NCBI RefSeq assembly: GCF_009906315.1
Contig: NZ_JAAALL010000010.1
Coordinates: 1 to 33,435 of the forward strand
DNA: 33,435 nucleotides
Reading direction: 5' to 3'
Origin: Kineococcus vitellinus
GTDB lineage: Bacteria > Actinomycetota > Actinomycetes > Actinomycetales > Kineococcaceae
Below are positions 1,149 to 26,613 of this stretch, piece by piece. The notes under the pieces are model-generated. The model searched no databases. It was not told the origin of the DNA and was given only the letters and a program-made list of their open reading frames with translations. The number at the start of each line of letters is the position of its first letter. The stretch's first letter is position 1. The translations under genes and the position numbers were made by a program.

Positions 1149-2012
1149 TCAGGGGCGCGCCCGCGCGGTGCGGGCCCGCACCGACACCCGCCACCCCAGG
1201 TGCCCCGCGGGGTCCAGCCGGCCCACCTGCTGCTCGTCCGCGGTGGCGAGGTCGACGGCCGCACCGAGCAGCGGTTCCACCCCGACCGAGCGGTACGGCG
1301 CGCCCGCGGGCCAGCCGCCGAGGTTACGCCACAGCACCAGGGACAGCGGCCCGGCGCCGCGCAGCAGCTCCCAGCGCAGCGCCAGCCGGTCCGGCCCGTC
1401 GACGACCGCCACCCGGTCGGTGGCGACGAGCGCGCAGCGGGCGGTGCCGTCGTCGGGGCCGAGCCGGTCCAGCCGCACGCCGGCGCCGTCCGGCCAGGTG
1501 GTCCGCGTGAGGGCGCCGGGGCCCGGCGCGTCGAGGACGGTGACGGCCGCCCCGGCGGGCACGAGGAGGCGGGCGGCGGGGGACAGGGCCAGCAGGGCGT
1601 GCACGGCGTGCAGGACGCGCGCCCCCGGCGGGCCCTCGACCGCGTAGCGGGCGCCGACGCCCCCGTCCGGCAGCGCGGTCAGCCGCCGGCGCAGCAGCAG
1701 GGCGCCCGCGCGCACCGACGCGGTCCCGGGCGCCTCGCCCGTCCACGGCCGCGACCAGACCTCGCCGTGGTCCGGCGCGCCGCGCAGCCCGGGGAAGCAC
1801 TCCTCCACACCGCCCGCGTCGACGAACGCCTCCCCCGGGCGCACCGCCGCGCGCTTGCCCGCACCGACGCGCGGGTTGGTCCACAGCCACTCGCGGCCCG
1901 GGGTGCGCAGCGACGTCCACCGCCCGCCGTGCTCCTCGTCGGTGCCGACGGCCAGCGGCTCGGGCAGCAGCGCCGGCTCCGGCCCGGCCCTCGCGCCGGG
2001 CGCAGCGCTCAC
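1149..2012 (-). CDS. Aldose 1-epimerase-like protein (galactose mutarotase fold)
   Basis: A 287-residue protein with GTG start at 2012, 7 bp after the permease stop, so it is probably the last gene of the sugar operon. No signal peptide or membrane segment is seen. The sequence is rich in beta strands and has mutarotase-like landmarks: an N-terminal W-x-S-L...EWLWTNP segment and a C-terminal VLWRNLGGWPAGAPYRSVGVEP segment, as in aldose 1-epimerase relatives that bind a sugar. I cannot place the classical catalytic His and Glu with confidence, so it may be a sugar-binding or anomer-handling protein rather than a proven epimerase. Position behind an importer and next to a glycosidase-like gene supports a role in presenting one sugar anomer to downstream enzymes. 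Confidence 0.8.
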   Translation of the reverse strand: MSAAPGARAGPEPALLPEPLAVGTDEEHGGRWTSLRTPGREWLWTNPRVGAGKRAAVRPGEAFVDAGGVEECFPGLRGAPDHGEVWSRPWTGEAPGTASVRAGALLLRRRLTALPDGGVGARYAVEGPPGARVLHAVHALLALSPAARLLVPAGAAVTVLDAPGPGALTRTTWPDGAGVRLDRLGPDDGTARCALVATDRVAVVDGPDRLALRWELLRGAGPLSLVLWRNLGGWPAGAPYRSVGVEPLLGAAVDLATADEQQVGRLDPAGHLGWRVSVRARTARARP

Positions 2013-2019
2013 CCGGTGC

Positions 2020-2913
2020 TCACTTGTTCGAGCCCACGAGCAGGCCGGAGACGAACTGCTTCTGGAAGAGGAAGAAGACGAGCGCCGTGGGGACGGCCGC
2101 GACCAGCGAGGCCGCCGCGATGACGTTCCACGAGCTGGAGTAGCCGCCCATGAGGTTCAGCAGCGCCGCGGTGACGGGGAACTTCGACTCGCTGCGCAGC
2201 ACCGTCAGCGCCCAGATGAGGTCGTTGAAGATCCACGTCGTCGCCAGCGCGGCGAGGGCCGCGGTGGCGGGGCGGCTGAGCGGCACCACGATCCGCAGGT
2301 AGATGCGCCCCGCTCCGGCGCCGTCGAGGCGGGCGGCCTCGAAGAGCTCCTCGGGCAGCGAGCGCATGAAGCCGTGCAGGACGAAGGTGTAGAAGCCGAT
2401 GCCGAAGCCGACCTGCACGGCGACGAGGGCGAAGAGGGTGTCGGCGATCCCGAGGGACTCGCTGATGCGGGCCACCGGCACCAGCAGCACCTGCGGGGGC
2501 AGCAGGTTGCCGGCCAGCATGACCAGCAGCAGGCTCTTGCGGCCGGGGATCGCGAAGCGGCTGAGCGCGTACGCCGCCCACGAGGACAGCAGCAGCGAGG
2601 CCAGCACCGTGCAGGCGGTGACGACGACGCTGTTGCCCAGCGCCCGCAGCAGGCTGCCGCCGGTGAAGGCCGTGCTCAGGCCCTCCCAGGTGAAGGAGGC
2701 GGGCAGCGCGGCCAGGCCGCGGGAGGCGATGTCGTCGAAGGAGCGCACCGCGATGAGCGCGACGAACACGATCGGGCTCAGCCACAGCAGCGTCAGCGGG
2801 ACCATGACGACGTGCAGCCACGGCGAGCGCGCCCGGCGGGGCCGGCGCACCGCGGGCGGGGCGCCGGCGAGCGAGGTGCCGGGGGTGGGGGTGGTGGCGG
2901 GGACCGTGGTCAC
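2020..2913 (-). CDS. Carbohydrate ABC transporter permease, MalG type
   Basis: A 297-residue inner-membrane permease, GTG start at 2913, overlapping the partner permease by four bases (GTGA). After a cytoplasmic N-terminus with proline- and arginine-rich stretches there are six hydrophobic segments. The CUT1-family EAA loop is clear: EAARLDGAGAGRIYLRIVVP near residues 195-215, which docks on the ATPase. The family moves mono- or oligosaccharides delivered by the lipoprotein encoded two genes upstream. No ATPase gene lies nearby, so it presumably uses a shared MsiK/UgpC-type ATPase encoded elsewhere. The C-terminus SGLLVGSNK is typical of this permease family. Substrate is not deducible. Confidence 0.95.
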   Translation of the reverse strand: MTTVPATTPTPGTSLAGAPPAVRRPRRARSPWLHVVMVPLTLLWLSPIVFVALIAVRSFDDIASRGLAALPASFTWEGLSTAFTGGSLLRALGNSVVVTACTVLASLLLSSWAAYALSRFAIPGRKSLLLVMLAGNLLPPQVLLVPVARISESLGIADTLFALVAVQVGFGIGFYTFVLHGFMRSLPEELFEAARLDGAGAGRIYLRIVVPLSRPATAALAALATTWIFNDLIWALTVLRSESKFPVTAALLNLMGGYSSSWNVIAAASLVAAVPTALVFFLFQKQFVSGLLVGSNK

Positions 2914-3914
2914 GACTCCTCCTCGGCGCGGGCCTGGCGGGCCAGGTAGGTGATGATGAACCCGACCGCCAGCACGAAGATGACGACGGCGATCGCGGAG
3001 GCGTAGCCGAGGTTCCCCGCGGTGAACGCCTGCTGGAACATGTAGGTGCTCAGCAGCTGCGTCGTGTTGTACGGGCCGCCCCGCGTCATCGCCCACACGA
3101 TGTCGAAGGTGCGCAGCGAGTCGATGACCGTGACGGCGAACACCACCGTGTTGACCCCGCGCAGCTGCGGCACGACGATGCGCCAGAACCGCTGCCAGGC
3201 GTTGGCGCCGTCGACGGCGGCGGCCTCCTCCAGCGTCGCGTCGCACCCCTTCAACCCCGCCAGGTAGAGCACCATGATGTAGCCGACCTGGCGCCACACC
3301 GCCGCCACGAGGATCGCGGCCAGCGCCACGTCCGGGTCCGCCAGCCACTGGCGCTGCAGCTCCTCCAGGCCCAGCCCGCCCAGCGCCGCGTTCACCGGGC
3401 CGGCCGGCTGGTACATGACCCGCCAGAACAGCCCCGTCACCGCCATGGAGACCACCATGGGCAGGTAGATGGCGCTGCGGTACAGACCCACCCCGCGGCC
3501 GGGCTTGTTGAGCGCCACCGCCAGCGCCAGGCCGCCCAGCACCGACAGGCCGCCGAAGCCGACGACCCAGGCGACGTTGTTGCGCAGCGCCGTGCGGAAG
3601 ATCGGGTCCGACCACAGGTCCGCGAAGTTCTGCAGGCCCACCGGCTCGGCGGGGGTGATGCCGTCCCAGCGCAGCAGCGACAGCGAGAAGGAGTTCGCCG
3701 CCGGCCAGAACACCCAGAACAGCTCCACCGCCAGCGGCACGAGCAGGAACACCCACACCAGCAGCGGCACCCGCCGCAGCCTGGCCCCCAGCGGTGCGCG
3801 GGCCGGTGCGGGGCGGGCGGGGCCGCGCGGTGGGCCGGGCGAGCGCGGCCGCCCGCGCCGCCCGGCCGGGGCGCCCGCCGTCAGGTCGCCGGTGGTCAGG
3901 TCACCGGTGGTCAC
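2910..3914 (-). CDS. Carbohydrate ABC transporter permease, MalF type
   Basis: A 334-residue permease with GTG start at 3914, overlapping the sugar-binding protein stop by four bases and the next permease by four. The first 50 residues are an unusual Thr/Gly/Pro/Arg-rich cytoplasmic tail that begins with a short repeat (TTGDL twice). Six hydrophobic helices follow, starting VPLLVWVFLLVPLAVELFWV. The EAA loop reads EEAAAVDGANAWQRFWRIVV, with the conserved G and the trailing IVVP. The ending YLARQARAEEES is charged and cytoplasmic. It pairs with the MalG-type protein to form the membrane channel of a CUT1 importer. If the repeat-rich head is wrong, a start further in is possible, but the 4-base overlap favours 3914. 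Confidence 0.94.
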   Translation of the reverse strand: MTTGDLTTGDLTAGAPAGRRGRPRSPGPPRGPARPAPARAPLGARLRRVPLLVWVFLLVPLAVELFWVFWPAANSFSLSLLRWDGITPAEPVGLQNFADLWSDPIFRTALRNNVAWVVGFGGLSVLGGLALAVALNKPGRGVGLYRSAIYLPMVVSMAVTGLFWRVMYQPAGPVNAALGGLGLEELQRQWLADPDVALAAILVAAVWRQVGYIMVLYLAGLKGCDATLEEAAAVDGANAWQRFWRIVVPQLRGVNTVVFAVTVIDSLRTFDIVWAMTRGGPYNTTQLLSTYMFQQAFTAGNLGYASAIAVVIFVLAVGFIITYLARQARAEEES

Positions 3915-5224
3915 TGGCCCCGGACCCCCTCGGCGGCCGCCTGCCACTCCTGCAGGACGGCGTCGCGCGAGCCCGGGTCGGCGAGGAAGCGGGTGAGCGC
4001 GGTGTCCGCCGTCGCCTGCAGCGCGTCCGAGGAGTCGCGGTTGAAGAACTGGGTGATCTCCTGGGTGGAGTTGAGCAGCTCGACGCCCTTCTGCACCAGC
4101 GGGCTGAAGGAGGAGGTGTCCACGTCCGGGGACGTCGGCAGGTTGGAGGAGCCGGACTGCTCGATGAACAGCTGCTGCTGCTCGGGGGAGGCCAGGTAGG
4201 ACAGGAACGCCAGGGTGGCGTCGGGGTCGTCGGTGCCGGCCGCGGCGAAGTAGCCGTCGGTGGGCGCCTCCTCGGCGGTGGGGATCGAGGGGTCCATCAC
4301 CGGCACGGAGAAGAAGTCGAGGTCCTCGCGCTGGTCCTCGGGGAAGTACTGGGTGACGAAGGCGCCGATGAGGTACATCGCCGAGCGATCCTGCGCCATC
4401 GGCACCGTCGCCTCCTGGTTGGAGTAGGAGGCCATGTCGGGGTCGAAGAAGGGGATGAGCCGCTCGTACTGCTCCATCACCTCCACCACCTCCGGGTCGG
4501 TGAAGGAGTGCTCCCCGGCCAGCAGCTCGCGGTGGTACTGGGCGCCGTTGACGCGCAGGTCCAGGTAGTCGAACCAGCCGGAGGCCATCCACGGCGTGGA
4601 GCCGATGCCGTTGGCGAGCGGGACGACGCCCTGGCCGGACAGGTTGGTGCACAGGGCCAGGAACTCGTCCCAGGTGGTGGGCGGGGTGACGCCCCACTTC
4701 TCGAAGGCCGACTTCTTGTAGAAGACCGACCACCAGTAGTAGTTCGTCGGGACGAAGATCTGCGTCCCGTCCTCGGCCGCGGACAGGCTGCGCAGGGCCT
4801 CGGAAAAGCCGGCGCAGGCGCCGTCGCCCTCCCAGAGGCTGGAGACGTCCAGCAGCAGGCCCTCGGAGGCGTAGCTGCGCGCCACCGACCCCGCGTACCA
4901 GCTCATGACGTCCGGCGGGTTGGACGAGCGCAGGTAGTTCGTCAGCTGGGCGCGGAACTGCTCGGTCGCCACCGAGTTCATCGTCACCTCGCCGTCGTAG
5001 GCGTCGACGAGCGCTTCGAGGGCGGCCTTGGGGGCGGTGTCCTGGATGGAGTTCTGGAAGACGACACCGCCGCCACCTCCTCCGCCGCCGCCCGAGCCGC
5101 CGGAACCGCCCGAGCCGCCGCTGCTGACGCAGCCGGTGAGCAGGCCGGCGGCGCCCAGCCCGGCGCCGGTGAGCAGGCTCCGGCGGCTGGTCGCGCCCGG
5201 GCGGGGTGTTCCCGTGCTGGTCAT
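3911..5224 (-). CDS. Extracellular sugar-binding lipoprotein (ABC importer)
   Basis: A 437-residue family 1 solute-binding protein. The start ATG at 5224 has a strong Shine-Dalgarno (AAGGAGG, about 6 nt upstream). The N-terminus has a twin-arginine motif (TSRRSLLTG) and a lipobox LLTGC with Cys32, so it is likely exported by Tat and lipid-anchored. A Gly/Ser linker with nine glycines in a row (residues about 33-53) tethers the lobe. Family landmarks follow: PPDVMSWYAGS, TNYYWWSVFYKKSAFEKWGV, PPTTWDEFLAL and a C-terminal helix-rich end. The many aromatic residues (YYWW) suit carbohydrate binding. It feeds the two permeases that follow with 4-base overlaps. A 104-bp gap separates it from the cellulase-like gene, so it may have an additional promoter. 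Confidence 0.95.
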   Translation of the reverse strand: MTSTGTPRPGATSRRSLLTGAGLGAAGLLTGCVSSGGSGGSGGSGGGGGGGGGVVFQNSIQDTAPKAALEALVDAYDGEVTMNSVATEQFRAQLTNYLRSSNPPDVMSWYAGSVARSYASEGLLLDVSSLWEGDGACAGFSEALRSLSAAEDGTQIFVPTNYYWWSVFYKKSAFEKWGVTPPTTWDEFLALCTNLSGQGVVPLANGIGSTPWMASGWFDYLDLRVNGAQYHRELLAGEHSFTDPEVVEVMEQYERLIPFFDPDMASYSNQEATVPMAQDRSAMYLIGAFVTQYFPEDQREDLDFFSVPVMDPSIPTAEEAPTDGYFAAAGTDDPDATLAFLSYLASPEQQQLFIEQSGSSNLPTSPDVDTSSFSPLVQKGVELLNSTQEITQFFNRDSSDALQATADTALTRFLADPGSRDAVLQEWQAAAEGVRGQ

Positions 5225-5288
5225 CTCGTTCCTCCTTGCGTCGTCGTCGACGCGGTCGGGTCGGGTGGGAACTGGTCGGTAGGGGACT

Positions 5289-5320
5289 CGCGGGTGGGGA
5301 CCCGGAGGTGGGGACCCGCG
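5289..5320. repeat. Direct and inverted repeat in the gap before the sugar-binding lipoprotein gene
   Basis: The 104-bp gap between the cellulase-like stop and the lipoprotein start contains GGTGGGGACCCG twice (5293-5304 and 5307-5318, period 14). The pair is bounded by CGCGGGT (5289-5295) and ACCCGCG (5314-5320), which can pair. It could be an intra-operon hairpin that adjusts expression of the binding protein relative to the enzyme genes, a common arrangement in importer operons, or a regulator site. Function is not shown. Confidence 0.4.
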
Positions 5321-5328
5321 GGTGGAGG

Positions 5329-6618
5329 TCAGGAGGTCGCGGGGGAGCCGGTGGTGAAGAGGGCCGCGCACTCGCGCTGCAGCGCGACGTCGTCCCACAT
5401 GGCGTGCTGCGGTGCGGCGTTGGAGCACACCACCGCGCCCCAGACGCCGAGCTCGTGGGCCTCGCGCACCACCTGCCGGCACAGCTGCGCGCCCACCGAC
5501 CCCTCCTCGAAGCGGGTGTCCTTGGGGGTGTAGCCGACGTAGCCCTCGCCGAGCACGAGCGGGATCCCGCTCGCCGCGGCCCAGTCGGCGGCCACCTGCA
5601 GCCACAGCGAGAGCTTCTGCTCCACGGCCAGGCGGTGCTCGCCCCAGCGCTCGTACAGCCACCGGTCGACGGCGGCCGGGTCGCACCAGTCGTGCACGTA
5701 GATCTCCGGCAGCGAGACGATCGTGGCCCGCAGCTTCCACGCGTTCTCCGCTCCGGGGGTCCAGTCCGCGATGGCCGGTGCGCCCGGGCGCAGCAGCTCC
5801 CGGGCGCGTTCGGCGGGGAAGTCCCCGACGCTGCCGCGCAGCCCGAACTCGTCGACGAGGGCCTGCAGGTTGCCGTAGGCGTAGGGGTGGACGACGAGCA
5901 CGTCGGCGCTCGGCGGCACCGCGCTCAGCGCGGCGACCGGGACGCCCGCGTAGTTCACCGTGCACGGCCGCTCGGGGTGGTGCTGCTTGAAGCGTCGGAT
6001 GCCGCGCTCCAGGCGCTGCGTGAGCGCGGGCACCGCCGCGTCGCCGCGCCCCACGCCGAGGCCGTCGGTGAGGTAGCCGATCTGGACCTCGTTGTGCAGC
6101 TCGGTGAACAGCACGACATCGTCCAGGCCCTCGGCGGCCAGCAGGTCCAGCAGGTCCGCGTGCGCGTCGGCCAGCACCTCGGCGCGCTGCTCGGGGTCCA
6201 CGGCGTGCAGCGCCTCGTACCAGGCGGGGTCCAGCGCGAACGAGGGGGACTGCTGGTACTCCCAGGAGGAGACGATGACGCCGACGCCGTGCCGCTGCGC
6301 GGCGCGGAAGAACTCCAGCGTGTGGGCGCGGGCGTCGATCGTCGTCTCGGCGCCCACGTCGTACCAGCGCACCCCCTGCCCGTACTGCCCGCCCAGCGGG
6401 CCCAGCCGCAGCGCTGCGGTGTCCAGGCCGGAGCGGAACAGCAGGAACGGCATCGCGCAGATGCGCACCGCGCCGTACCCGCGCTCCACGGCCTGCGCGA
6501 ACGCCGCGTCCAGGTCCTCGAACGGCTCGCCGGGACCGGTGCGCACGTACCAGGAGAAGTCCCACAGGCTGATGAGCAGCTTGTCCGGTGCACCGGCCGG
6601 CAGGTTGCGGGTCTTCAC
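5329..6618 (-). CDS. Cellulase-like family glycoside hydrolase (clan GH-A fold)
   Basis: A 429-residue cytoplasmic protein (no signal peptide) starting at GTG 6618, with GAGGAGG 7 nt upstream and a 4-base overlap with the preceding gene. The start MKTRNLPAGAPDKLLISLWD leads into a TIM-barrel sequence. LFTELHNEVQIGY (near residue 175) supplies a candidate acid/base Glu at the end of strand 4. VLGEGYVGYTPKD (near residue 380) supplies a candidate nucleophile Glu at the end of strand 7, the GH-A pattern. VHPYAYGN and the Trp-rich stretch before strand 7 would line the sugar site. Actinobacterial relatives are annotated as cellulase-like family proteins, and I know of no settled substrate. Being intracellular, it probably acts on an imported oligosaccharide or glycoside rather than on cellulose itself. 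Confidence 0.85.
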   Translation of the reverse strand: MKTRNLPAGAPDKLLISLWDFSWYVRTGPGEPFEDLDAAFAQAVERGYGAVRICAMPFLLFRSGLDTAALRLGPLGGQYGQGVRWYDVGAETTIDARAHTLEFFRAAQRHGVGVIVSSWEYQQSPSFALDPAWYEALHAVDPEQRAEVLADAHADLLDLLAAEGLDDVVLFTELHNEVQIGYLTDGLGVGRGDAAVPALTQRLERGIRRFKQHHPERPCTVNYAGVPVAALSAVPPSADVLVVHPYAYGNLQALVDEFGLRGSVGDFPAERARELLRPGAPAIADWTPGAENAWKLRATIVSLPEIYVHDWCDPAAVDRWLYERWGEHRLAVEQKLSLWLQVAADWAAASGIPLVLGEGYVGYTPKDTRFEEGSVGAQLCRQVVREAHELGVWGAVVCSNAAPQHAMWDDVALQRECAALFTTGSPATS

Positions 6619-9600
6619 GAGGGGACCTCCTCGACGAGCGCGGGCGGGACGGTGGCCGGGCGGGGGGACCCGGCCGACAGGTCGTGCGTCAGGTCGTGCA
6701 CCAGGTCGTGCACGGACAGGGCGTGCGCCAGGTCGGCCGCGTGCCGCGAGGAGGCCAGCAGCGGGGCCGCGAGCAGCCGCCGGGCCCGGGCGGGCTCGCC
6801 GTCGAGGACGGCCAGCTGCGCGTCGAGCACCGCGACGCGCCGCTCGCGCACCGCCAGCGGGTCCTCCTCGAACAGCAGCAGGTCCGGCAGCGAGGTGGCG
6901 AAGTAGTCCACCGACGGCGCCGCCGCCGCGAACGCGTTCCGGAAGGCGCGCAGCGAGGCGGCCAGCGCGCGGCCCTCCCCGGAGCGGCCCAGGCGGTGCA
7001 GCGCCAGCACCGACCACGCGGTCGTCTCGCTGTGCTCCTGCGCGCTCATCCCCAGGAAGTCCCCGCGCTGCTCCGCCGCGTCCCGCCACGCCTCGCGGGC
7101 GGCGGTCTCCTCGCCCGCGGCGGCGTGCGCGTCGCCCAGCAGCAGGTGCAGTTGCGCGGTGGAGGCCAGCGGGTGGCGGGCCTCGCCCAGGCAGCGGGGG
7201 CTCTCCAGCGCCGCCCGCAGGTGGGCCAGGGCGCCGCCCGCGTCCCCCGCGGCGAGCGCGTCCAGCGCCAGGCGGGTGCGGGCGCGCTCCCACGCCGACA
7301 GCGCCTGCCCCTCACCGCCCTCCCACGGCTGGAACGTGCGGCCGGTGAGGACCTGCACCGCCCGCTCGGCGCGGCCGGCGCCGACGAGCAGGTGCGCGAC
7401 CTCCACGAGGGCGTCGTGGCGCTGCTCCGCGAGGTCCCAGCGCTCCAGCCAGCGCGCCAGCCGCTGCGCGGGCGCGGTGCCGCGCAGCGCGTCGAGCTGG
7501 TCGGCCTCGAAGCGCAGCCGCGCGTCGTCCGGGGCCAGCGCCAGCGCCCGCTCGTAGGCGCGCTTGGCCCCCGCCAGGTCGTGCCCGCGGTTGACCAGGT
7601 CCAGGCCGAGGTTGCGGTGCACGACCGGGTCGCTCGGGTCGGCGGCCGCGCTGGCGGCCCACTGCTCCGCTGCGTCGGCGTGCCGGCCCACCGCGTACAG
7701 CCAGTGCCCGCGCAGCGCCCGCGCCCGCGGGTCCTCCCCGGCGGCCTCCAGCGCCGCCGCGTCCGCCACCCGGCCCGGGAAGCACCACGCCGCCGGTGCC
7801 TCGCGCGCCGCCTCCCGGGCGGCCGCCGCCTGCGCCGCGCGCCCCAGGGACTCCAGCACCACCGCGCGGTGGTAGCCGAGCAGCGGGCCCGCCGCGCTCT
7901 GCCCGGCCGGGCGGTGCGCCTCCCGCTGCTGCGCCAGCTCGAGCACGGCCAGCGCGTCCTCGCCCTCCCCGGCCCCCGCCAGCTCCAGCGCGACGTCCAG
8001 GCAGGTCTGCGCGTCCGCGCTGGCGGGCAGCCCGTCGAGGTGGCGCAGCCACGCGTCCAGCGGGTCCAGCGCCCGCGCCCGCGCCAGCACCCGCGCGGCC
8101 TGCGCGGAGCGGCCCAGGCGGCGCAGGCACACGACCTCCAGCGCGGCGGCCTGCAGGTGCTCCGGCTCGGTGCGGCGCACGTCCGCCAGGCGGTGCAGCG
8201 CCTGCTCGGTGCGCCCGCGCCGCGCGTCCAGGCGGGCCATCCGGTACCCGGCGGCGGCGCGCCAGGAGCGCGACCAGGACGCGCGCCCGTGCCGCTCGTA
8301 AGCCTCCTCCTCGCGCCCCAGCGCCTCCAGCACCAGCCCCAGCAGGTGGTGGGCGGTCGTGTCCTCCGGCGTGGGGTGGTGCGCGGTGAGGCGGGTCACG
8401 GCCCGCTCCAGCAGCTCCTGCGCCTCCTTCCAGCGCGCCGCCCGGCAGGCCCGCAGCGCCAGCCCGACCAGGCTGGGCGCGTGCCCGGGGTCGCGGCGCA
8501 GCGCCTCGCGCCAGTACGGCTCCGGCGAGCGGGTGGCGTGCCGGTACAGCTCCAGGTGCTGGGCGACCAGCGCCAGCTCCTCCACCGTCGCGACCTGGCC
8601 CGGCGCGGGCGGTTCGCTCGCGCTGGCCGGTTCCTCAGCTCCTGCAGCGGTTCCCGCACCGCCGGCCGTGCGGGCCTCGCCGGTGTCCCAGGCGACCAGG
8701 ACCCGCCCCTCGTGCACGACGGTGACCGCGAGCGTCCGCGCCGCCGCGGGCACGTCGTGCACGGCGGTGTGCGCCGACCCCGGGTCCAGGTCGACCTCGT
8801 CGGCGGCCAGCAGCCGCCCGTCGGCGCGCAGCTCCACCCGCACCCCGCGCCGTGGGCGGGTGACGACGACGGCCAGGCGGGCCCGCTCGCCCTCGCGCAC
8901 CAGGCTCACCGCCGCGTCCAGGCTGGCCCGGTCGACGGCGCCGGTGGCGCGCACCGGGTACCAGTGCTGGGAGAACACCTTGGTCTCCCCGGGGGCCAGC
9001 CGGGCGAAGTCGGGCTGGTTGTCGGTGAACACCCCCGCCATCAGCTCCACGTAGTGCGCGCCGTCGTCGGACAGGTTCGCGTCCCAGGCGTGCCCGAAGG
9101 GGGAGTTCCCCCACGTCCACTGCTTCTTGCCGACGGCGACCTGGTGGTCGGCGACGTGGACGAACCCGACGCCGGTGGCGTGGTCGTAGCCGCCGAAGAA
9201 GTCCTCCCGGCTGCTCAGGCACATGTACGAGGTGGGCACGGGGATGTTGCGGTACCAGTCCAGGCGGTCGCCGGTCAGGGCGGTGCCGTCGGCGGCGCGG
9301 TGCACCTGCCCGGCGCGGGAGGGGTAGTCGACGCCGTAGTAGGGCCGGTCGGCGTGCGGGTAGGCGCTCACCGCGCGCTTGGCGTGGTCGGCGACGAACG
9401 TCGCGTCGTGCGGGAAGAAGGACTGGTAGTCGTCGTCGACGCGGGCCGCGACGTTGGCCCACCACAGGAACGACTGCGGCAGCTCGGAGCGGTTGTACAG
9501 GCGCACCGCCAGCTCCAGCACCGAGCTGCCCGGCCGCAGCCGCAGCGCGTGCACGCCCCGCATGCGGGTGAAGGGGTCGTGGTCGGAGCAGCGCACGACG

Positions 9601-10082
9601 ACGGCGCCGTCCTCCTCCACCTCCGCCGCCCAGTCGGTGGGCAGGTACGTCGCCGGCCGGTGGTGCTGGGGCCAGTTGAACTCCACGCCCCCCGCGATCC
9701 ACGGCCCCGCCAGCCCCACGAGGGCCGGTTTGACGACCGGGTTGGCGTAGAAGAGGTCCTCGCCGCCGGCGAGGTCGCGCACCACGTGGACGCGGCCGCC
9801 GAGCTCGGGCAGCACCACCACGTGCAGCCACTCGTTCTGCAGGTGCACCGCCTGCCAGGCGTGCGGCACCGCCTCCTCGGCGATCGCGTGGTGGAACGGC
9901 AGCGGGTACACCCGGCCCGAGGAGCCCTGGTACACGCGCCGGTCCAGGTAGGCGGGGAAGCGCTCCGGCGGCAGCGGGTGGTACGTCGGCAGGGTCAGCG
10001 GAGCGCTCCACACCGCTGCGGGGGCGTCGGCGAGCTGCGCGGGGCGCGGCGGGAGCTCGATCGTCGACTCGGCACTGAGCAT
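6615..10082 (-). CDS. DUF5107 domain protein with C-terminal TPR array
   Basis: An 1155-residue cytoplasmic protein starting at ATG 10082. There is no Shine-Dalgarno; TAGCGT lies 7 nt upstream, so the mRNA is probably leaderless. Residues about 35-340 form the DUF5107 domain, a beta-sandwich of the galactose-mutarotase/glycosidase type. Landmarks include LPELGGRVHVVRDLAGGEDL, GVEFNWPQHHRPATY and HATGVGFVHVADHQVAVGKK, with conserved acidic, His and Trp residues suitable for a sugar pocket. After a beta-rich linker, residues about 500-1130 are Ala/Leu/Arg-rich helical repeats fitting tetratricopeptide repeats, for example HLELYRHATRSPEPYWREAL and VVHRNLGLDLVNRGHDLAGA. Its role is unknown. As first gene of an operon with a glycosidase-like protein and an importer, it probably binds or processes the imported carbohydrate, with the TPR part as scaffold. 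Confidence 0.9.
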   Translation of the reverse strand: MLSAESTIELPPRPAQLADAPAAVWSAPLTLPTYHPLPPERFPAYLDRRVYQGSSGRVYPLPFHHAIAEEAVPHAWQAVHLQNEWLHVVVLPELGGRVHVVRDLAGGEDLFYANPVVKPALVGLAGPWIAGGVEFNWPQHHRPATYLPTDWAAEVEEDGAVVVRCSDHDPFTRMRGVHALRLRPGSSVLELAVRLYNRSELPQSFLWWANVAARVDDDYQSFFPHDATFVADHAKRAVSAYPHADRPYYGVDYPSRAGQVHRAADGTALTGDRLDWYRNIPVPTSYMCLSSREDFFGGYDHATGVGFVHVADHQVAVGKKQWTWGNSPFGHAWDANLSDDGAHYVELMAGVFTDNQPDFARLAPGETKVFSQHWYPVRATGAVDRASLDAAVSLVREGERARLAVVVTRPRRGVRVELRADGRLLAADEVDLDPGSAHTAVHDVPAAARTLAVTVVHEGRVLVAWDTGEARTAGGAGTAAGAEEPASASEPPAPGQVATVEELALVAQHLELYRHATRSPEPYWREALRRDPGHAPSLVGLALRACRAARWKEAQELLERAVTRLTAHHPTPEDTTAHHLLGLVLEALGREEEAYERHGRASWSRSWRAAAGYRMARLDARRGRTEQALHRLADVRRTEPEHLQAAALEVVCLRRLGRSAQAARVLARARALDPLDAWLRHLDGLPASADAQTCLDVALELAGAGEGEDALAVLELAQQREAHRPAGQSAAGPLLGYHRAVVLESLGRAAQAAAAREAAREAPAAWCFPGRVADAAALEAAGEDPRARALRGHWLYAVGRHADAAEQWAASAAADPSDPVVHRNLGLDLVNRGHDLAGAKRAYERALALAPDDARLRFEADQLDALRGTAPAQRLARWLERWDLAEQRHDALVEVAHLLVGAGRAERAVQVLTGRTFQPWEGGEGQALSAWERARTRLALDALAAGDAGGALAHLRAALESPRCLGEARHPLASTAQLHLLLGDAHAAAGEETAAREAWRDAAEQRGDFLGMSAQEHSETTAWSVLALHRLGRSGEGRALAASLRAFRNAFAAAAPSVDYFATSLPDLLLFEEDPLAVRERRVAVLDAQLAVLDGEPARARRLLAAPLLASSRHAADLAHALSVHDLVHDLTHDLSAGSPRPATVPPALVEEVPS

Positions 10083-10188
10083 GAGCGGGACGCTAGGTCC
10101 GCGCGCCGCCGGGGAGAAGGGACGATCCGACGCGCCGGCCTGGACGATCCGCTGGCCGGCTCCCGGCGCCGAGGGCTACCGTCCGCTC
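10083..10188. promoter_or_regulatory. Divergent promoter region with two AraC-type operator repeats
   Basis: The 106 bp between the DUF5107 start (10082) and the AraC-type regulator start (10189) contain GGACGATCCG at 10120-10129 and again at 10142-10151, 22 bp apart or about two helical turns. Leftward, TAGCGT (10095-10090) lies 7 nt from the ATG. Rightward, TACCGT (10177-10182) lies 6 nt from the GTG. With transcription starting at each start codon, the repeats are centred at about -42 and -64 from both promoters. AraC-family activators typically bind such direct repeats next to the -35 position, so this is a likely operator for activation of the sugar operon and autoregulation. The repeats are seen; the function is inferred. 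Confidence 0.65.
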
Positions 10189-11058
10189 GTGCGGATCCGC
10201 GAGGGCTTCCCCGGCCAGCGGCTGCGCGTCCTGCCCGCCGACGTCGTGCGCGCCGCCTCGGCCGGCGGGCCGACCTCGCGGCTGCTCGTCACCGACGCCG
10301 GGTGGTTCCCCCGTGCCCTGCACCACGGTCGTGCGCGACGCGCGGGGGCGAGCGGCACCGTCGTCATCGTCTGCGCCGCCGGTCGCGGCTGGTGCCGGGC
10401 GGGCGCGGGGACCGTGGCCGTCGGTCCGGGGCAGGCGCTGGTCGTGCCCGCCGGGCTGCCGCACGCCTACGGCGCCGAGGACAGCGACCCATGGACGATC
10501 GCCTGGCTGCACGCGACCGGGCCGGACGCCCGCGAGTTCGAGCGCACCCTCACCGGGGGAGGGCCGCGCGCGGTCGTCGTCGACCTGCACGACGTGGTGG
10601 CGGTGCTGGGCGAGGTGGAGCGCGTCGTCGAGCACCTGGAGACCGACGAGACGGCGCCCACCCTCGTGCGGGCCTCGGGCGCGGCGTGGAACGTGCTGGC
10701 CGGCGTGGCCGCCGACGCCCTCGCCGGCAGCCCCGTGCACCGCGAACCCGTCCGCCGCGTCCAGCAGCACCTGCGGGCCCACCTGGAGGCCCCCGTCTCG
10801 GTGACCGCGCTGGCCGCGATGACGGGGCTGTCGGCCTCCCACTTCGCCGCGCTCTTCCACGCCGCGACCGGGGGAGGGGTGGTCGAGTACGCCAAGCGGC
10901 TGCGGATGGCGCGCGCCTGCGAGCTGCTCATCACCACCTCGCTGCCGGTCGGGGAGATCGCCCGCTCGGTGGGGTACGCCGACGCGTTCTACTTCTCCCG
11001 CCAGTTCCGCAGCGTGCACGGGTGCAGCCCCAGCGCCTTCCGGAGCAGGGAGCAGTGA
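10189..11058 (+). CDS. AraC-family transcriptional regulator
   Basis: A 289-residue DNA-binding regulator. The N-terminal half (about 1-140) is a cupin-like sensor of the AraC type, with the pattern GQALVVPAGLPHAYGAEDSD followed by WTIAWLHATG, as in sugar-responsive members. The C-terminal 100 residues carry two helix-turn-helix motifs: VTALAAMTGLSASHFAALFH and VGEIARSVGYADAFYFSRQF, then HGCSPSAFR. The frame extends up to an ATG at 10081, but that codon overlaps the divergent start and would put the operator repeats inside the gene. GTG 10189, 6 nt after TACCGT, is the better start and gives a normal family length. It probably activates the divergent DUF5107/glycosidase/importer operon in response to the imported sugar. 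Confidence 0.9.
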   Translation: MRIREGFPGQRLRVLPADVVRAASAGGPTSRLLVTDAGWFPRALHHGRARRAGASGTVVIVCAAGRGWCRAGAGTVAVGPGQALVVPAGLPHAYGAEDSDPWTIAWLHATGPDAREFERTLTGGGPRAVVVDLHDVVAVLGEVERVVEHLETDETAPTLVRASGAAWNVLAGVAADALAGSPVHREPVRRVQQHLRAHLEAPVSVTALAAMTGLSASHFAALFHAATGGGVVEYAKRLRMARACELLITTSLPVGEIARSVGYADAFYFSRQFRSVHGCSPSAFRSREQ

Positions 11059-11080: not shown

Positions 11081-11126
11081 CGCCGCCGGCTCGTGCTCCC
11101 CGCAGGCACGTGCCCCATGACGGCTA

Positions 11127-11163
11127 CATATATCTACTCTTAAAATGTTAGAGTAGATATATG
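11127..11163. promoter_or_regulatory. Perfect 14-bp inverted repeat over promoter and start of the AlbA_2-domain gene
   Basis: CATATATCTACTCT (11127-11140) and AGAGTAGATATATG (11150-11163) are exact reverse complements around the 9-bp spacer TAAAATGTT. The right arm ends in the ATG start codon (11161-11163) of the next gene. TAGAGT (11149-11154) lies 6 nt before that ATG and TAAAAT (11141-11146) lies in the spacer; both are plausible -10 elements, and no Shine-Dalgarno is present. The 37-bp block is strikingly AT-rich against its surroundings. It looks like an operator that covers the polymerase site, most simply bound by the winged helix of the downstream protein itself. Confidence 0.75.
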
Positions 11164-12576
11164 CAGCGTCTCGCCGTCGACCGTGCCTTGGCGATGCCTC
11201 CCGACGAGGTCGGTCGCGCGCTCGGAGTGCTGCCGGAGGACCAGTGGTTCGAGCGCAAGAGCGCTCGGATCAGCCCGCCCAAGCTCAGCCAGGCGGTCGT
11301 CGCCTTCGCCAACGCCGAGGGCGGGACGATCGTCGTCGGTCTCCACGACGGGCGCGTCGAGGGGACGGACGCGGATCCCCGGCACCGCAATGAGCTGCAG
11401 CAGGTGCACGTGCAGCACGTCCAGCCCCCGGCCCGCGTCCACACGCGCCTCGTGCCGTGCCGCACCGATGACGGTCGCGACGACCACCTGCTCCTCGTGG
11501 ACGTCAACCCCGGCGACGAGGTCCACACGACGACCCGGGACGACGTGTACCTGCGGCTCGGTGACGAGACGCGCCGTCTGACCCACGTGCAACGCCGCGA
11601 GCTCTTCTTCGACAAGCGACAGGCCGGGTTCGAGGCCGAGCTCACCACCACCGCCCTCGACAGCGCCGGAGCCGTCGACGCCGAGGCCGCGCAGGAGTAC
11701 GCCGCGCACGTCGGTCACCCGCACTGGCAGGGCCTGCTGGCAGCGCGCGGCCTGGCGCGGGACGGGCACCTCACGATCGCCGGGCTGCTGCTCTTCGGGC
11801 GCAGCCCCGAGAGCGAGCTCCCGAACGCCCACGTGCGGGTGACCCGCTTCGCCGGGCGCGAGCGCGGCACCGGAGCACGTCAGCAGGTGGTCTCCGACCG
11901 CCGGTTCGAGGGGTCCCTGCTGCGACTCCTGCCCGCGGTGTTCGAGCACGTCCGCGAGGTGCAGCCGCGCCGGCGGGCGCTGGGCAGGGCCGGCCGCTTC
12001 GAGGACGTCGCTGCGGTGCCGGAGGATGCCTGGCTGGAAGGCGTCGTCAACGCCGTCGTCCACCGCTCCTACAGCCTGCAGAGCGACCACGTGCACGTCG
12101 ACGTCTTCGACGACCGCATCGAGGTCGAGAGCCCGGGCCGCTTCCCGGGGCTGTCCGACGTGCGGGACCCGCTGTCCGTCCACCGCTTCGCGCGCAACCC
12201 CCGCATCGCGCGGGTCTGCGCCGACCTGGACTTCGGCCAGGAGTTTGGCGAGGGAATTCGCCGCATGTTCGACGAGATGCGGCTCGCGGGCCTGCAACCA
12301 CCCCTCTACCAGCAGACCGAGGGCAGCGTCCGGTTGACGCTGTCCGCCGAAGCGCTCACCCCACACGGCGACCAGCGGCTGCCGGAGGAGACCCGGCTCG
12401 TCGTCGCCGCGCTGCGCGAGGCCGGGCGGCTGGCGACGCGCGACCTCGCGGAGGTGATGGGGCGGACGAGACCGACCGCCGTCCGCAAGCTCGCCGAGAT
12501 GCGGGAGCAGGGCGTCATCCGCTGGAACGGTCAGTCCCCGCGGGATCCGCACGCCTACTGGGACCTCCCGTCGTGA
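11161..12576 (+). CDS. AlbA_2 (Schlafen-type) / ATPase-like transcriptional regulator
   Basis: A 471-residue protein. Residues about 25-130 match the AlbA_2/Schlafen-like divergent AAA domain: QWFERKSARI, then LSQAVVAFANAEGGTIVVGL, and later DDVYLRLGDETRRLTHVQRR. Residues about 290-370 match the GHKL-like HATPase_c_4 module: EGVVNAVVHRSY, VDVFDDRIEVESPGRFPG and NPRIARVCADLDFGQEFGEG. The last 80 residues form a winged helix (ATRDLAEVMGRTRPTAVRKL). Proteins of this make-up are common in bacteria and annotated as putative DNA-binding or ATP-binding regulators; targets are mostly unknown. It stands alone between unrelated genes, so autoregulation through the dyad over its start is the simplest model. 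A defence role has been proposed for some relatives, but nothing here shows it. Confidence 0.88.
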   Translation: MQRLAVDRALAMPPDEVGRALGVLPEDQWFERKSARISPPKLSQAVVAFANAEGGTIVVGLHDGRVEGTDADPRHRNELQQVHVQHVQPPARVHTRLVPCRTDDGRDDHLLLVDVNPGDEVHTTTRDDVYLRLGDETRRLTHVQRRELFFDKRQAGFEAELTTTALDSAGAVDAEAAQEYAAHVGHPHWQGLLAARGLARDGHLTIAGLLLFGRSPESELPNAHVRVTRFAGRERGTGARQQVVSDRRFEGSLLRLLPAVFEHVREVQPRRRALGRAGRFEDVAAVPEDAWLEGVVNAVVHRSYSLQSDHVHVDVFDDRIEVESPGRFPGLSDVRDPLSVHRFARNPRIARVCADLDFGQEFGEGIRRMFDEMRLAGLQPPLYQQTEGSVRLTLSAEALTPHGDQRLPEETRLVVAALREAGRLATRDLAEVMGRTRPTAVRKLAEMREQGVIRWNGQSPRDPHAYWDLPS

Positions 12577-22905: not shown

Positions 22906-23949
22906 TCAGCCGCTCCCGCGCGGCGGCGCCGTCGAGCCGCGCACCACGAGCTGGGTGGCGAGCTCGATGTGGTGCGGGTCGAGGACCTCCCCGTCGACCA
23001 GGCGCAGCAGCATCTCCAGCGCGAAGCGGCCCATGTCCTGCAGGGGGGTGCGCACCGTCGTCAGGGCGGGGGTCACCCACCGGGCCACGTAGGTGTCGTC
23101 GAAGCCGACGACGGAGAGGTCCTCGGGCACCCGCACGCCGTGGGCGCGGGCGGCCTGCACCACGCCGAACGCGCAGACGTCGGTGACGGCGAAGATCGCG
23201 GTGGGCGGGTCGTCGGAGGTGAGCAGCCGGCCGGCGAGCTCGGCGCCGGCGTCGAAGCCGAACCCGCCGTCGACGACCAGTTCGGGGTCGACGGGCAGGG
23301 CGGCGTTGGCCATCGCGGCCCGGAAGCCGTGCAGGCGGGCCTGGCTGATGGCCGCGCCCGCGGGGCCGCCGAGGTGGGCGATCCGGCGGTGCCCCAGCGA
23401 GATCAGATGCTCGGTGGCGGTCAGCCCGCCGGTCCAGTTGGTGGCGCCCACGCTCGCGACACCGGCCTGCGGGGTGTGGACCGGGTCGACGACGACCAGC
23501 GGCAGCCGCACCTTGGCGAACCCGGCGACCTGCTGCGAGGTGAGGTCGGAGGTCACGACGAGGACCCCGTCGCGCCCGGCCTTGACCAGCCGCCGCGCCC
23601 ACGTCGCCCCGCTGCTGTAGCCGGACATGCCGTCGGAGAAGCGCCCCACCACGACGTCGGCGTCGGCGCTGGTGCCCGCGTCGGTGACCCCGCGGATGAG
23701 CTCGGTGGCGTAGGGGCTCATGAAGTCGTCGAAGATGAGGCCGATCGTGCGGTGCCCGCCGGCGGCGCGCTTGGGCGGTGCCTGCAGGTACTCGTGCTCC
23801 AGCAGCAGGCGCTCGATGCGCTCGCGGGTGCGCGCGCCCACGTCGTCGCGGCCGTTGAGCACCTTCGACACGGTGGCCGTGGACACCCCCGCCTCGGCGG
23901 CGATGGCCGCGAGCGTGGGCCGCTTGCCGCGGCCGGGAACCTCGCCCAC
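22906..23949 (-). CDS. LacI-family transcriptional repressor
   Basis: A 347-residue regulator starting at GTG 23949, with GGAGGA just upstream. The N-terminal helix-turn-helix and hinge are classical: TLAAIAAEAGVSTATVSKVL followed by NGRDDVGARTRERIERLLLE. The periplasmic-binding-protein-like effector domain starts at TIGLIFDDFMSPYATELIRG, has GHRRIAHLGGPAGAAISQAR in the middle, and ends with the family's SVVGFDDTYVARWVTPALTT and RTPLQDMGRFALEMLLRLVD. It diverges from the second sugar operon and almost certainly represses it, with release on binding the imported sugar or an early product. TTGCGAA-containing sites in the gap are candidate operators and would also allow autoregulation. Confidence 0.95.
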   Translation of the reverse strand: MGEVPGRGKRPTLAAIAAEAGVSTATVSKVLNGRDDVGARTRERIERLLLEHEYLQAPPKRAAGGHRTIGLIFDDFMSPYATELIRGVTDAGTSADADVVVGRFSDGMSGYSSGATWARRLVKAGRDGVLVVTSDLTSQQVAGFAKVRLPLVVVDPVHTPQAGVASVGATNWTGGLTATEHLISLGHRRIAHLGGPAGAAISQARLHGFRAAMANAALPVDPELVVDGGFGFDAGAELAGRLLTSDDPPTAIFAVTDVCAFGVVQAARAHGVRVPEDLSVVGFDDTYVARWVTPALTTVRTPLQDMGRFALEMLLRLVDGEVLDPHHIELATQLVVRGSTAPPRGSG

Positions 23950-24155
23950 CCGTCCTCCTCCACCTCGGCGGGCCCGCCCGCGCGTCCCGGCCGGCCCCGC
24001 GCCGGCCGGCCCATCATCCCGCAGCACCCGCGCCCGGCCGGCCGCCCAGCGGAGCGGGGAGCCCACGGATGTTGCGAAACGCCACGGTAGGGGAGAGGCC
24101 GGATCGGAGCAACGGCCCCGGGGATCCCAGCTCGAAGCTTGCGGTGGAGAACCCC

Positions 24156-24185
24156 TTGACGTTCTGAGCTGCGGCGTCCTAGCGT
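24156..24185 (+). promoter_or_regulatory. Promoter of the second sugar operon
   Basis: TTGACG, an 18-bp spacer and TAGCGT match the actinobacterial housekeeping sigma consensus well (TTGACn ... TAnnnT). It faces the sugar-binding protein gene and is followed within 20 bp by the best repressor-site candidate, an arrangement that suits repression of early transcription. Confidence 0.65.
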
Positions 24186-24200
24186 CTGCCGCGTCCAGTC

Positions 24201-24220
24201 TTTCGCGCAACATTGCGAAC
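24201..24220. promoter_or_regulatory. Candidate LacI-type operator (second copy of core at 24071-24080)
   Basis: TTCGC (24202-24206) and GCGAA (24215-24219) form an inverted repeat around 8 bp, within TTTCGCGCAACATTGCGAAC. The heptamer TTGCGAA occurs here (24213-24219) and again at 24072-24078, 141 bp away. LacI-family sites are usually palindromes with central CG and TTnCG/CGnAA halves, so both copies are reasonable operators and could allow looping. The exact boundaries are uncertain. Confidence 0.45.
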
Positions 24221-24340
24221 ATCCGGTCCGCCGACGGTGGTGGTCCGGCAGCGACGACGCCGTCCGACGCGCTCCAGCGCCACGGCTGCACGGGCCCGGC
24301 ACGCGGTCGTGCCGGGGCACACACGACGACGGAGGACACC

Positions 24341-25648
24341 GTGCACGACACCTTCCCCGACCCCGCTCGGCACCTGAGCCGGCGCCGGCTGCTCGCCGGT
24401 GGCGCGGCGGCCGGCACCGCAGCGGCGCTCGCCGCGTGCGGCGGCGGCAGCGACGCCGGCGGTGGTGGCGGCGGCACCACCCTGCGCATGTGGACGTGGG
24501 CCTCGGAGTTCGAGGACGCCTTCGCGGCCGCGGCCGCCGAGTACCACGCGCTGCACCCGGACGTGACGATCGAGCCGCGGTACTGGAGCTTCGCCAACTA
24601 CGCCCCCTCGCTGCAGGCGGCGCTCGCGGCGAAGGAGGAGGCCGACATCTTCATGCCGCTCGTCTCCACGCTGGCCCTCGGCCAGGCCGAGCGGATCATC
24701 GACCTCAAGCAGGCGCTCGGGCAGGACTTCCTCGACGGGTTCTTCCCCTCCACCAACGAGGAGAACGTCTACGAGGACGGCCAGTACGCCGTCGGCTGGG
24801 CCGCCCAGACCTTCGGGCTGTTCTACAACACCACCATTCTGGACCAGCTGGGCCTGCAGCCCCCGGAGACCTGGGACGACCTCGCCGCGATGGCCCCGAA
24901 GATCAACGCGGCCGGGTACGTGACGATGTCCATCCAGGGCAACCCGTCGAACCAGCTGTCCGACTTCATGCTGCCCATCATCACCCAGATCACCGACGAC
25001 CCCCAGGTCGTGCTCGACCTCGACGCCCACGAGCAGGACGGCGTCAGCTGGGACAGCGAGCCCGTCGTGCAGGCGCTCACCGTCGTCAAGCAGCTCAAGG
25101 ACGCGGGCGTCTTCTCCGACGGCGTCCTGGCCACCGACAGCGACACCTCCAACAGCACCTTCACCAGCGGCAAGGCCGCGATGCTGTTCACCGGTTCCTT
25201 CTTCCCGCCCTCGCTGCAGACGACGGCGCCCCCGGAGTTCCTCACCCAGTACGGCATCGCCAAGACGCCCGCCATCGCACCCGGCGGCAAGCACTGGTGC
25301 GCCAACCAGGCCGGCTACACCTGGGCCGTCAGCTCCGGATCGCAGAACCAGGAGGCCGCGGTCGACTTCCTGAAGTACCTGTACGAGCCGGAGCGCTACC
25401 TGGCGATGATGAACGACACCTTCTCCATGCCCAGCACGAAGGCCGCCGCCGACGGCGTCACCAGCTCGGACATCAAGACCATGACCTCCTGGCTGCTGGA
25501 CGGCGAGGGCGCCCCGCACATCATGTTCGGCAAGGGGACGCTGGACTCGGTGACCAACGGCGTCGTCTCGGTCGTCGACGGCTCGGCCACCCCGGCCGAG
25601 GCCGCCAAGGCCATCGAGGCCGCCGTCGTGCAGAACCGGAAGATCTGA
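24341..25648 (+). CDS. Extracellular sugar-binding lipoprotein of the second importer
   Basis: A 435-residue family 1 binding protein. GTG 24341 is preceded by GGAGGA. The N-terminus has a twin-arginine motif (LSRRRLLAG) and a lipobox LAAC with Cys33, so Tat export and lipid anchoring are likely, followed by a Gly-rich linker. The mature part begins TTLRMWTWASEFEDAFAAAA and has FGLFYNTTILDQLGLQPPET and MLFTGSFFPPSLQ, typical of carbohydrate binders. Tyr and Trp residues near HWCANQAGYTWAVSSGS would line the ligand site. It delivers substrate to the two permeases encoded next. It shares only general family features with the first binding protein, so the two importers probably take different sugars. 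Confidence 0.95.
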   Translation: MHDTFPDPARHLSRRRLLAGGAAAGTAAALAACGGGSDAGGGGGGTTLRMWTWASEFEDAFAAAAAEYHALHPDVTIEPRYWSFANYAPSLQAALAAKEEADIFMPLVSTLALGQAERIIDLKQALGQDFLDGFFPSTNEENVYEDGQYAVGWAAQTFGLFYNTTILDQLGLQPPETWDDLAAMAPKINAAGYVTMSIQGNPSNQLSDFMLPIITQITDDPQVVLDLDAHEQDGVSWDSEPVVQALTVVKQLKDAGVFSDGVLATDSDTSNSTFTSGKAAMLFTGSFFPPSLQTTAPPEFLTQYGIAKTPAIAPGGKHWCANQAGYTWAVSSGSQNQEAAVDFLKYLYEPERYLAMMNDTFSMPSTKAAADGVTSSDIKTMTSWLLDGEGAPHIMFGKGTLDSVTNGVVSVVDGSATPAEAAKAIEAAVVQNRKI

Positions 25649-25662
25649 GGTCGCCGCCCGCG

Positions 25663-26613
25663 ATGACCACGACGACACCCACCCGGAGACCACCCGCGGT
25701 GGTCTCCCGGCGCCGCGCCCGGCGCCCCCTCACCGGCTGGTCCAACCCCACCGGACTGGCGTTCGTGCTGCCCGCACTCGCCTTCTTCGCGATCTTCATC
25801 GCCTACCCCGTCGTGCGCACCTTCGCCCTGTCGATGACCACCTCCGACGGGTTCGGCGGTTCCTCCTTCGCCTGGTTCCACAACTACGGCGTCATGGTGA
25901 CCGACCCGATCTTCCGCAAGGCCGCGGTCGTCACGCTCGTCTACACCGTGGTCACCACGGTGCTGCACACCGTCCTCGCGCTGGTCCTCGCGCTCGTCGT
26001 GCACGCCGGCCCGCGCCGCAGCGCCGTCGTCTACCGCACCCTGTTCTTCCTGCCCGCCGCGGTCTCGCTGACCGTCACCGGCCTGCTGTGGCGCATCGGC
26101 CTCACCCCGGTGTTCGGCGTCTTCAACCGCGTCCTGGACGCCGTCGGCCTCGGCTCGCTGCAGCACGAGTGGCTGGGCGACACCGCCACCGTGCTGCCCA
26201 CGATCATCGTCGTGTCGCTGTGGCAGTCGACGGGGCTGTTCATGCTCATCTTCTACGCGGCCCTGGGCAACGTGGACACCTCCATCGCCGAGAGCGCCCG
26301 CGTCGACGGCGCGGGGCCGCTGCGCGAGGCGTGGAGCATCACGATCCCCATGCTGCGTCCCGTCATCGAGGTCGTCGTCATGCTCAACGTCCTCAACGGG
26401 CTGAAGGTCTTCGACCTCAACTTCGTCATGTCCAACGGCGGCCCGCTGCACGCCTCGGAGTCGCTGAGCAGCTACACCTACCTGCTGACCTTCGGCTCCT
26501 CCACCGGCGGGGTGCCCTCCTTCGGCTACGGCTCGGCGATCAGCGTCGTCGTCTTCCTCGTCGCCGGCATCGCCACGCTGCTGCTGTACCGCTTCCGGAA
26601 GGGGGAGGCATGA
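25663..26613 (+). CDS. Carbohydrate ABC transporter permease, MalF type (second importer)
   Basis: A 316-residue permease starting at ATG 25663, 14 bp after the binding-protein stop. A basic N-terminal tail (RRPPAVVSRRRARRPLTGW) precedes six hydrophobic helices starting at LAFVLPALAFFAIFIAYPVV. The EAA loop reads ESARVDGAGPLREAWSITIP, and the later segment NGLKVFDLNFVMSNGGPLHA is typical of MalF-like CUT1 permeases. It ends in a short basic tail (RFRKGEA) and overlaps the next permease by four bases (ATGA). An ATPase gene is absent here as in the first importer. Confidence 0.95.
   Translation: MTTTTPTRRPPAVVSRRRARRPLTGWSNPTGLAFVLPALAFFAIFIAYPVVRTFALSMTTSDGFGGSSFAWFHNYGVMVTDPIFRKAAVVTLVYTVVTTVLHTVLALVLALVVHAGPRRSAVVYRTLFFLPAAVSLTVTGLLWRIGLTPVFGVFNRVLDAVGLGSLQHEWLGDTATVLPTIIVVSLWQSTGLFMLIFYAALGNVDTSIAESARVDGAGPLREAWSITIPMLRPVIEVVVMLNVLNGLKVFDLNFVMSNGGPLHASESLSSYTYLLTFGSSTGGVPSFGYGSAISVVVFLVAGIATLLLYRFRKGEA

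Follow-up and report, generated by a model that had tools for sequence, protein, structure and literature searches.

An operon in a Kineococcus-like genome, probably AraC-controlled and for imported galactosides, with a full-length counterpart of E. coli YphG

Six genes lie in one row on the minus strand (1149–10082) of the window, a complete contig of 33,435 bases from a soil-type, Kineococcus-like actinobacterium, and face a divergent AraC-family gene. With moderate confidence, the locus is read as an AraC-controlled operon for the use of imported galactosides. This reading draws on the GH36, GH35, GH53 or galactonate-route genes that accompany related loci, on a binding protein that resembles the galactose receptor AcbH, and on the tendency of this transporter type to go with GH36. 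The gene set is ordinary in kind, and it is informative for YphG, the E. coli counterpart of its DUF5107-TPR protein. The features are the following.

6615–10082, minus strand: DUF5107-TPR protein of the YphG family, 1155 amino acids; PF17128 at 159 bits; predicted GalM-fold domain at about residues 20–380, then a TPR superhelix
5329–6618, minus strand: TIM-barrel protein of PF12876 (clan GH-A), probable retaining glycosidase; PF12876 at 74.7 bits; E179 as likely acid/base, E360 as likely nucleophile
3911–5224, minus strand: sugar-binding lipoprotein, AcbH-like; SBP_bac_1 at 4.5e-32, AcbH match at E 7e-48; Tat/lipobox N-terminus
2910–3914, minus strand: CUT1 permease, MalF-like; BPD_transp_1 at 2.1e-15; GTG start overlapping the stop of the binding-protein gene
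2020–2913, minus strand: CUT1 permease, MalG-like; BPD_transp_1 at 1.4e-15; GTG start overlapping the stop of the MalF-like gene
1149–2012, minus strand: mutarotase-like protein with conserved H82, H138 and E246, invariant in 11 homologues; weak PF01263
10081–11058, plus strand: AraC-family regulator (AraC_binding and HTH_18), true start probably near 10189
10121–10151, minus strand: probable AraC operator, a direct repeat CGGATCGTC-N13-CGGATCGTC with a 22-bp period; core conserved in relatives

All the genes named in an earlier sequence-only reading of this DNA were found in their places, and the Pfam search of the window proteins confirmed DUF5107, the TPRs, PF12876, SBP_bac_1, two copies of BPD_transp_1 and AraC/HTH_18; the start of the GH-A gene is corrected to GTG 6618. 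GTGA overlaps are present at three joints, namely DUF5107/GH-A, binding protein/first permease and first permease/second permease, which supports a single transcript for the operon. The binding protein, whose N-terminus is of the Tat/lipobox type (SRRSLL...LLTGC), and the two MalFG-type permeases together make up a CUT1 importer, as had been proposed. The Pfam search detected no ATPase at the locus, and the importer presumably uses a shared one encoded elsewhere. Inspection of the N-termini revealed no apparent signal peptide on the DUF5107-TPR, GH-A or mutarotase-like protein, in line with the earlier proposal that the substrate is imported before the enzymes act on it.

The association of the two large proteins is seen in 80 loci collected via the GH-A protein from many actinobacterial families. 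A DUF5107 gene lies within ~10 kb of the GH-A gene in 50 of them, whereas just 12 of the 396 genomes sampled across the phylum have DUF5107, so that the co-conservation is far beyond chance. Gene order varies, with DUF5107 sometimes on the opposite strand or downstream of GH-A, and the linkage is thus kept despite rearrangement. An AraC gene is nearby in 48 of the 50 DUF5107-carrying loci. The locus is patchy, since the GH-A gene occurs in only 3 of 12 genomes of the window's family. The sequence-only reading would have been refuted by a lack of co-conservation in relatives; the neighbourhood analysis finds the genes linked and, together with the divergent AraC gene, the GTGA overlaps and a conserved operator-like repeat, bears out its view of one regulated set.

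In most relatives the homology of the AraC protein starts at about residue 34–39, which suggests that the annotated start at 10081 is over-extended and that the real one is probably near 10189. This start leaves a regulatory gap of ~100 bp between the AraC and DUF5107 genes, and the gap holds the direct repeat at 10121–10151. Of 40 loci, 36 have its core, TC[AG]TCCA (TCGTCCA in the window), upstream of the DUF5107 gene, while shuffled controls give a mean of 0.5 and a maximum of 3. Nowhere else in the genome is there a site without mismatches, all the remaining sites having 3; the 13 sites in total, against 6 in a reversed control, represent some excess. The AraC protein is likely to bind this repeat.

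The nature of the substrate is indicated by the neighbouring genes. GH36 is present in 24 of the 80 loci and GH35 in 25, and no locus has both. The neighbour GH36 proteins are closest to the AgaB/AgaA alpha-galactosidases (E 6.5e-101) and the GH35 proteins to beta-galactosidases. Several loci without DUF5107 carry a short-chain dehydrogenase/reductase (SDR), a protein scoring 586.7 bits with the galactonate dehydratase equivalog (cut-off 311) and a PfkB kinase nearest to KDG/KDGal kinases, a set that by its sequences constitutes an oxidative galactose route. GH53, the endo-galactanase family, occurs in Allonocardiopsis and in two of the Streptomyces loci with the galactonate route. These neighbourhoods point to ordinary galactosides or galactan, rather than to the unusual glycoside or special anomer suggested earlier. 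A plant galactolipid headgroup (alpha-Gal-beta-Gal-glycerol) as the substrate would fit the combination of GH36 and beta-galactosidase, but this idea was set aside for want of direct support.

The importer leads in the same direction. The best PDB match of the binding protein is AcbH of Actinoplanes (E 7e-48), its closest solved relative, which is described as a receptor for free beta-D-galactopyranose (Licht 2011, as cited in PMC8233162); the likeness of the window protein to it is one of sequence, which makes it a candidate galactose receptor. The window transporter type goes with GH36, with independent contrasts on the GH-A tree running ~7.7 to 0 (median p 0.008). A beta-L-arabinopyranoside, or some other sugar that resembles galactose, is a very unlikely substrate in place of a D-galactoside: the only NCBIfam match of the neighbour GH36 is indeed a beta-L-arabinopyranosidase model, but it falls far below the cut-off, the closest solved GH36 enzymes are alpha-galactosidases, and both the galactonate dehydratase equivalog and the AcbH-like receptor argue for galactose.

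The GH-A protein scores 74.7 bits with PF12876, against a cut-off of 25, and this is its only match in the Pfam search, which gave none to PF00150 (GH5, Cellulase). Its predicted model is a TIM barrel with a pLDDT of 92.5, and its best structural match is 3gyc (Z 35.2), followed by GH5_7 enzymes (Z ~23) and GH42-type beta-galactosidases (~19.6). H177-N178-E179 follows strand 4 and G359-E360 (GEG) follows strand 7, with residues numbered from codon 6624, as in the alignment; counted from GTG 6618, the numbers are 2 lower. Both glutamates are invariant in 56 sequences and are so placed in the model, indicating by position that the protein keeps an intact retaining pair, which agrees with its earlier description as a GH-A hydrolase-like enzyme. 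In those loci where no other intracellular glycosidase was detected next to the galactonate route, it presumably frees galactose, and it is therefore probably a galactosidase. In an alternative, the substrate would be a mannoside or a galactomannan fragment, from which GH36 trims alpha-galactose in the relatives, and the GH-A protein would be a beta-mannosidase. After 3gyc the GH-A fold is indeed closest to GH5_7 mannanases and exo-mannosidases (Z ~21–23), but GH5-type folds dominate such structure searches, here at 10–15% identity. GH35 is not a mannan enzyme, and the loci with GH-A, galactonate dehydratase and GH53, where no other galactosidase was detected, favour galactose release by GH-A. 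The mannoside alternative is judged unlikely.

As an observation in its own right, Streptomyces violaceusniger-type strains (L045, L049–L051, L068, L075–L077) keep the GH-A gene with no DUF5107 in the retrieved stretch. Several of these loci have a GntR gene and an anhydro-N-acetylmuramic acid kinase (AnmK) gene near GH-A, an arrangement read as clade synteny.

Beyond the Actinomycetota, DUF5107-TPR genes also stand among sugar genes: with a ROK regulator, a sugar porter and an aldose epimerase in a Klebsiella operon; with AraC, a sugar ABC system and a GalM-like protein in Cetobacterium; and with AraC, a sugar porter of the MFS and a GH2 protein closest to the exo-beta-1,4-galactosidase BT4151 in Phocaeicola and Persicobacter.

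Several points weigh against the galactoside reading of the window operon. The BT4151-like GH2 scores below the cut-off of that model, and for the MFS porters that accompany DUF5107 in other phyla the best match is to XylE-type transporters, also below the cut-off. In the two nearest Kineococcus loci (L005, L006), a GH36 alpha-galactosidase gene lies between the permease and the mutarotase, and comparison of the window (1149–2020) with them shows this gene to be missing; the only GH36 of the genome is on another contig and is just 41% identical to that of the relatives' locus. The nearest characterised folds to the GH-A protein are, as noted, GH5_7 mannan enzymes, and some Streptomyces have GH-A without any DUF5107. 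Galactonate dehydratase is absent from loci with DUF5107 (0 of 50 loci as against 10 of 30 without it, Fisher 2e-5), an exclusion explicable by shared ancestry; its interpretation as a functional replacement was dropped, as it reflects very few events on the GH-A tree. Finally, the literature searched held no functional paper on DUF5107, PF17128, PF12876 or yphG, and no biochemical result bearing directly on the DUF5107-TPR or GH-A protein.

Over its full length the DUF5107-TPR protein corresponds to E. coli YphG, a relationship that the sequence-only reading had missed. The two align end to end over 1085 residues with 34% identity (E 3e-178), and the window protein shows the characteristics of the YphG family, namely PF17128 above its cut-off (159 bits versus 24.4), followed by TPR matches forming a superhelix, at a length of ~1100 residues. 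The make-up of the E. coli yphABCDEFGH operon is similar, comprising YphG, a sugar ABC importer, the mutarotase YphB and a divergent regulator. Unlike the window, however, it has, in place of CUT1, another type of sugar ABC system that includes an ATPase, a NagC-like instead of an AraC regulator and the Zn dehydrogenase YphC, and it lacks the GH-A protein. Galactoside operons with GH36 or GH35 share with the window an AraC regulator, a CUT1 importer and an intracellular glycosidase without a signal peptide, and relatives of the window locus carry GH36 or GH35; the core of the window, in contrast, is DUF5107-TPR with PF12876, and it has no GH36.

The only solved relatives found for DUF5107-TPR and PF12876 are 5cd6 (BDI_1685) and 3gyc, respectively, both from Parabacteroides distasonis. 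The predicted model of the DUF5107-TPR protein has a pLDDT of 80.8, with a low-pLDDT part of the domain at ~218–290. It matches 5cd6, which is half the length of the window protein, with Z 29.2, and after it the closest fold is GalM (Z 20.7 and 20.5), the match to B. subtilis GalM 4bze having Z 20.7 and a root-mean-square deviation of 3.1 over 251 aligned residues. In the model, the N-terminal DUF5107 domain thus has the GalM supersandwich fold, and the mutarotase fold proposed earlier for it is borne out. In P. distasonis, the genes for SusC, SusD and a DUF4091 protein are followed by one for a shorter DUF5107 protein (L127:9992–13641), whose N-terminus is signal-like and which perhaps represents an exported branch of the family.

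The fold raises the possibility that the protein is a large mutarotase, whose GalM-fold domain interconverts the anomers of galactose while the TPRs tether partner enzymes. Besides the fold, E346 is invariant and is spaced from N355-Q356-P357 as in the E...NHP of E. coli GalM, a correspondence by position only. However, the domain has no PF01263 match at E up to 1; hhalign with GalM sequences gave no alignment usable for either view. On the strand that carries the catalytic acid in GalM (TNHxYFN), all ten YphG-type members have FLWWAN, with no histidine; the two motifs were paired manually, by strand order and spacing, without a residue-level structural alignment. Moreover, E. coli, Klebsiella, Cetobacterium and several actinobacteria have a separate mutarotase-type gene close by. 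A role as a second ordinary mutarotase was for these reasons demoted to a rival explanation, and a rather unlikely one.

An alignment of ten DUF5107-TPR proteins, drawn from Actinomycetota, Enterobacterales, Bacteroidota and Fusobacteriota, has 152 invariant columns; some of these fall in NWPQHHRP, FLWWAN, GKKQW, ELM and NQPDF of the sandwich, others in PWEGGEG and DxFAxSxP of the TPR part. This conservation bears on another alternative, a cytoplasmic sugar sensor or scaffold that signals through its TPRs to AraC or ROK, or gathers enzymes. It would suit the usual protein-binding role of TPRs and the company of AraC, which is near DUF5107 in 48 of 50 loci and close to it also in Bacteroidota and Fusobacteria. 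However, the enterobacterial regulator is of the ROK type, and the ~150 residues that stay invariant across four phyla, with many polar ones in the sugar domain and in TPR loops such as PWEGGEG, resemble a catalytic pocket more than a docking surface; a sensor or scaffold is an unlikely role. Tentatively, and with less than even confidence, the protein is instead taken as an enzyme that acts on a galactosyl substrate and is other than an ordinary mutarotase. The frequent presence of a separate mutarotase and the absence of any other evident catabolic enzyme in the Klebsiella operon argue for a different step. In that operon of regulator, DUF5107, sugar porter and mutarotase, DUF5107 holds the place expected for the glycosidase, and it is conceivable, if speculative and rather improbable, that YphG and the other DUF5107-TPR proteins cleave glycosides as a new kind of enzyme, in which the GalM fold provides the framework and the active site is closed off by the TPR superhelix.

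The small protein at 1149–2012 scores 14.3 bits with PF01263, below the gathering score of 27 (E 0.027, best E for the family 0.019). A weak hhalign pairs its H138 with the GalM-family histidine, in an alignment to GalM that is otherwise unusable. Its sequence weakly suggests a mutarotase fold. Of the two mutarotase-fold proteins proposed earlier, the fold thus stands for DUF5107 by structure prediction and weakly for this protein, while the idea of two mutarotases is unlikely, as DUF5107 lacks the GalM catalytic-acid motif. A DUF4380 protein is encoded near DUF5107 in L071 (19233–20432), L072, L079, L057 and L055, and near GH-A in L067; in Microbacterium and Amnibacterium loci it adjoins DUF5107, perhaps replacing the mutarotase-like gene.

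Under the galactoside reading, the lipoprotein and two permeases would take up a sugar that contains galactose; with a transporter of this type, that is probably either an alpha-galactoside or galactose itself. Enzymes inside the cell would then release galactose, a step for which the relatives would use the GH36 alpha-galactosidase of the same operon. In the window, the recognisable glycosidase would be the GH-A protein, which with E179 and E360 would be of the retaining type and is most likely a galactosidase. The DUF5107-TPR protein may act at the anomeric centre of the galactosyl substrate just before the mutarotase step, in a pocket to which its conserved TPR loops probably contribute. 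The small mutarotase-like protein would equilibrate the freed sugar for galactokinase, and a galactokinase-type gene is present in the genome.

Elsewhere in the window, an AT-rich inverted repeat (11123–11167; 18-nt arms, 94%; 9-nt spacer) occurs once in this GC-rich genome and runs into the ATG of a Schlafen/AlbA_2 and HATPase_c_4 gene (11161–12576), looking like a dedicated autoregulatory operator. A second sugar-type ABC set (binding protein, permease; 23720–27491) and a Zn dehydrogenase (29933–31057) are separate from the operon.

YphG is a large protein of E. coli K-12 that is named only by a domain of unknown function, and the proposed link to galactosides narrows the ligands and assays to be considered for it. 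PF12876 and PF17128 are here tentatively tied to galactoside use, and the DUF5107-TPR family is traced over four phyla. If the enzymatic reading is true, the known range of the GalM fold would grow to include an enzyme that lacks the customary catalytic acid.

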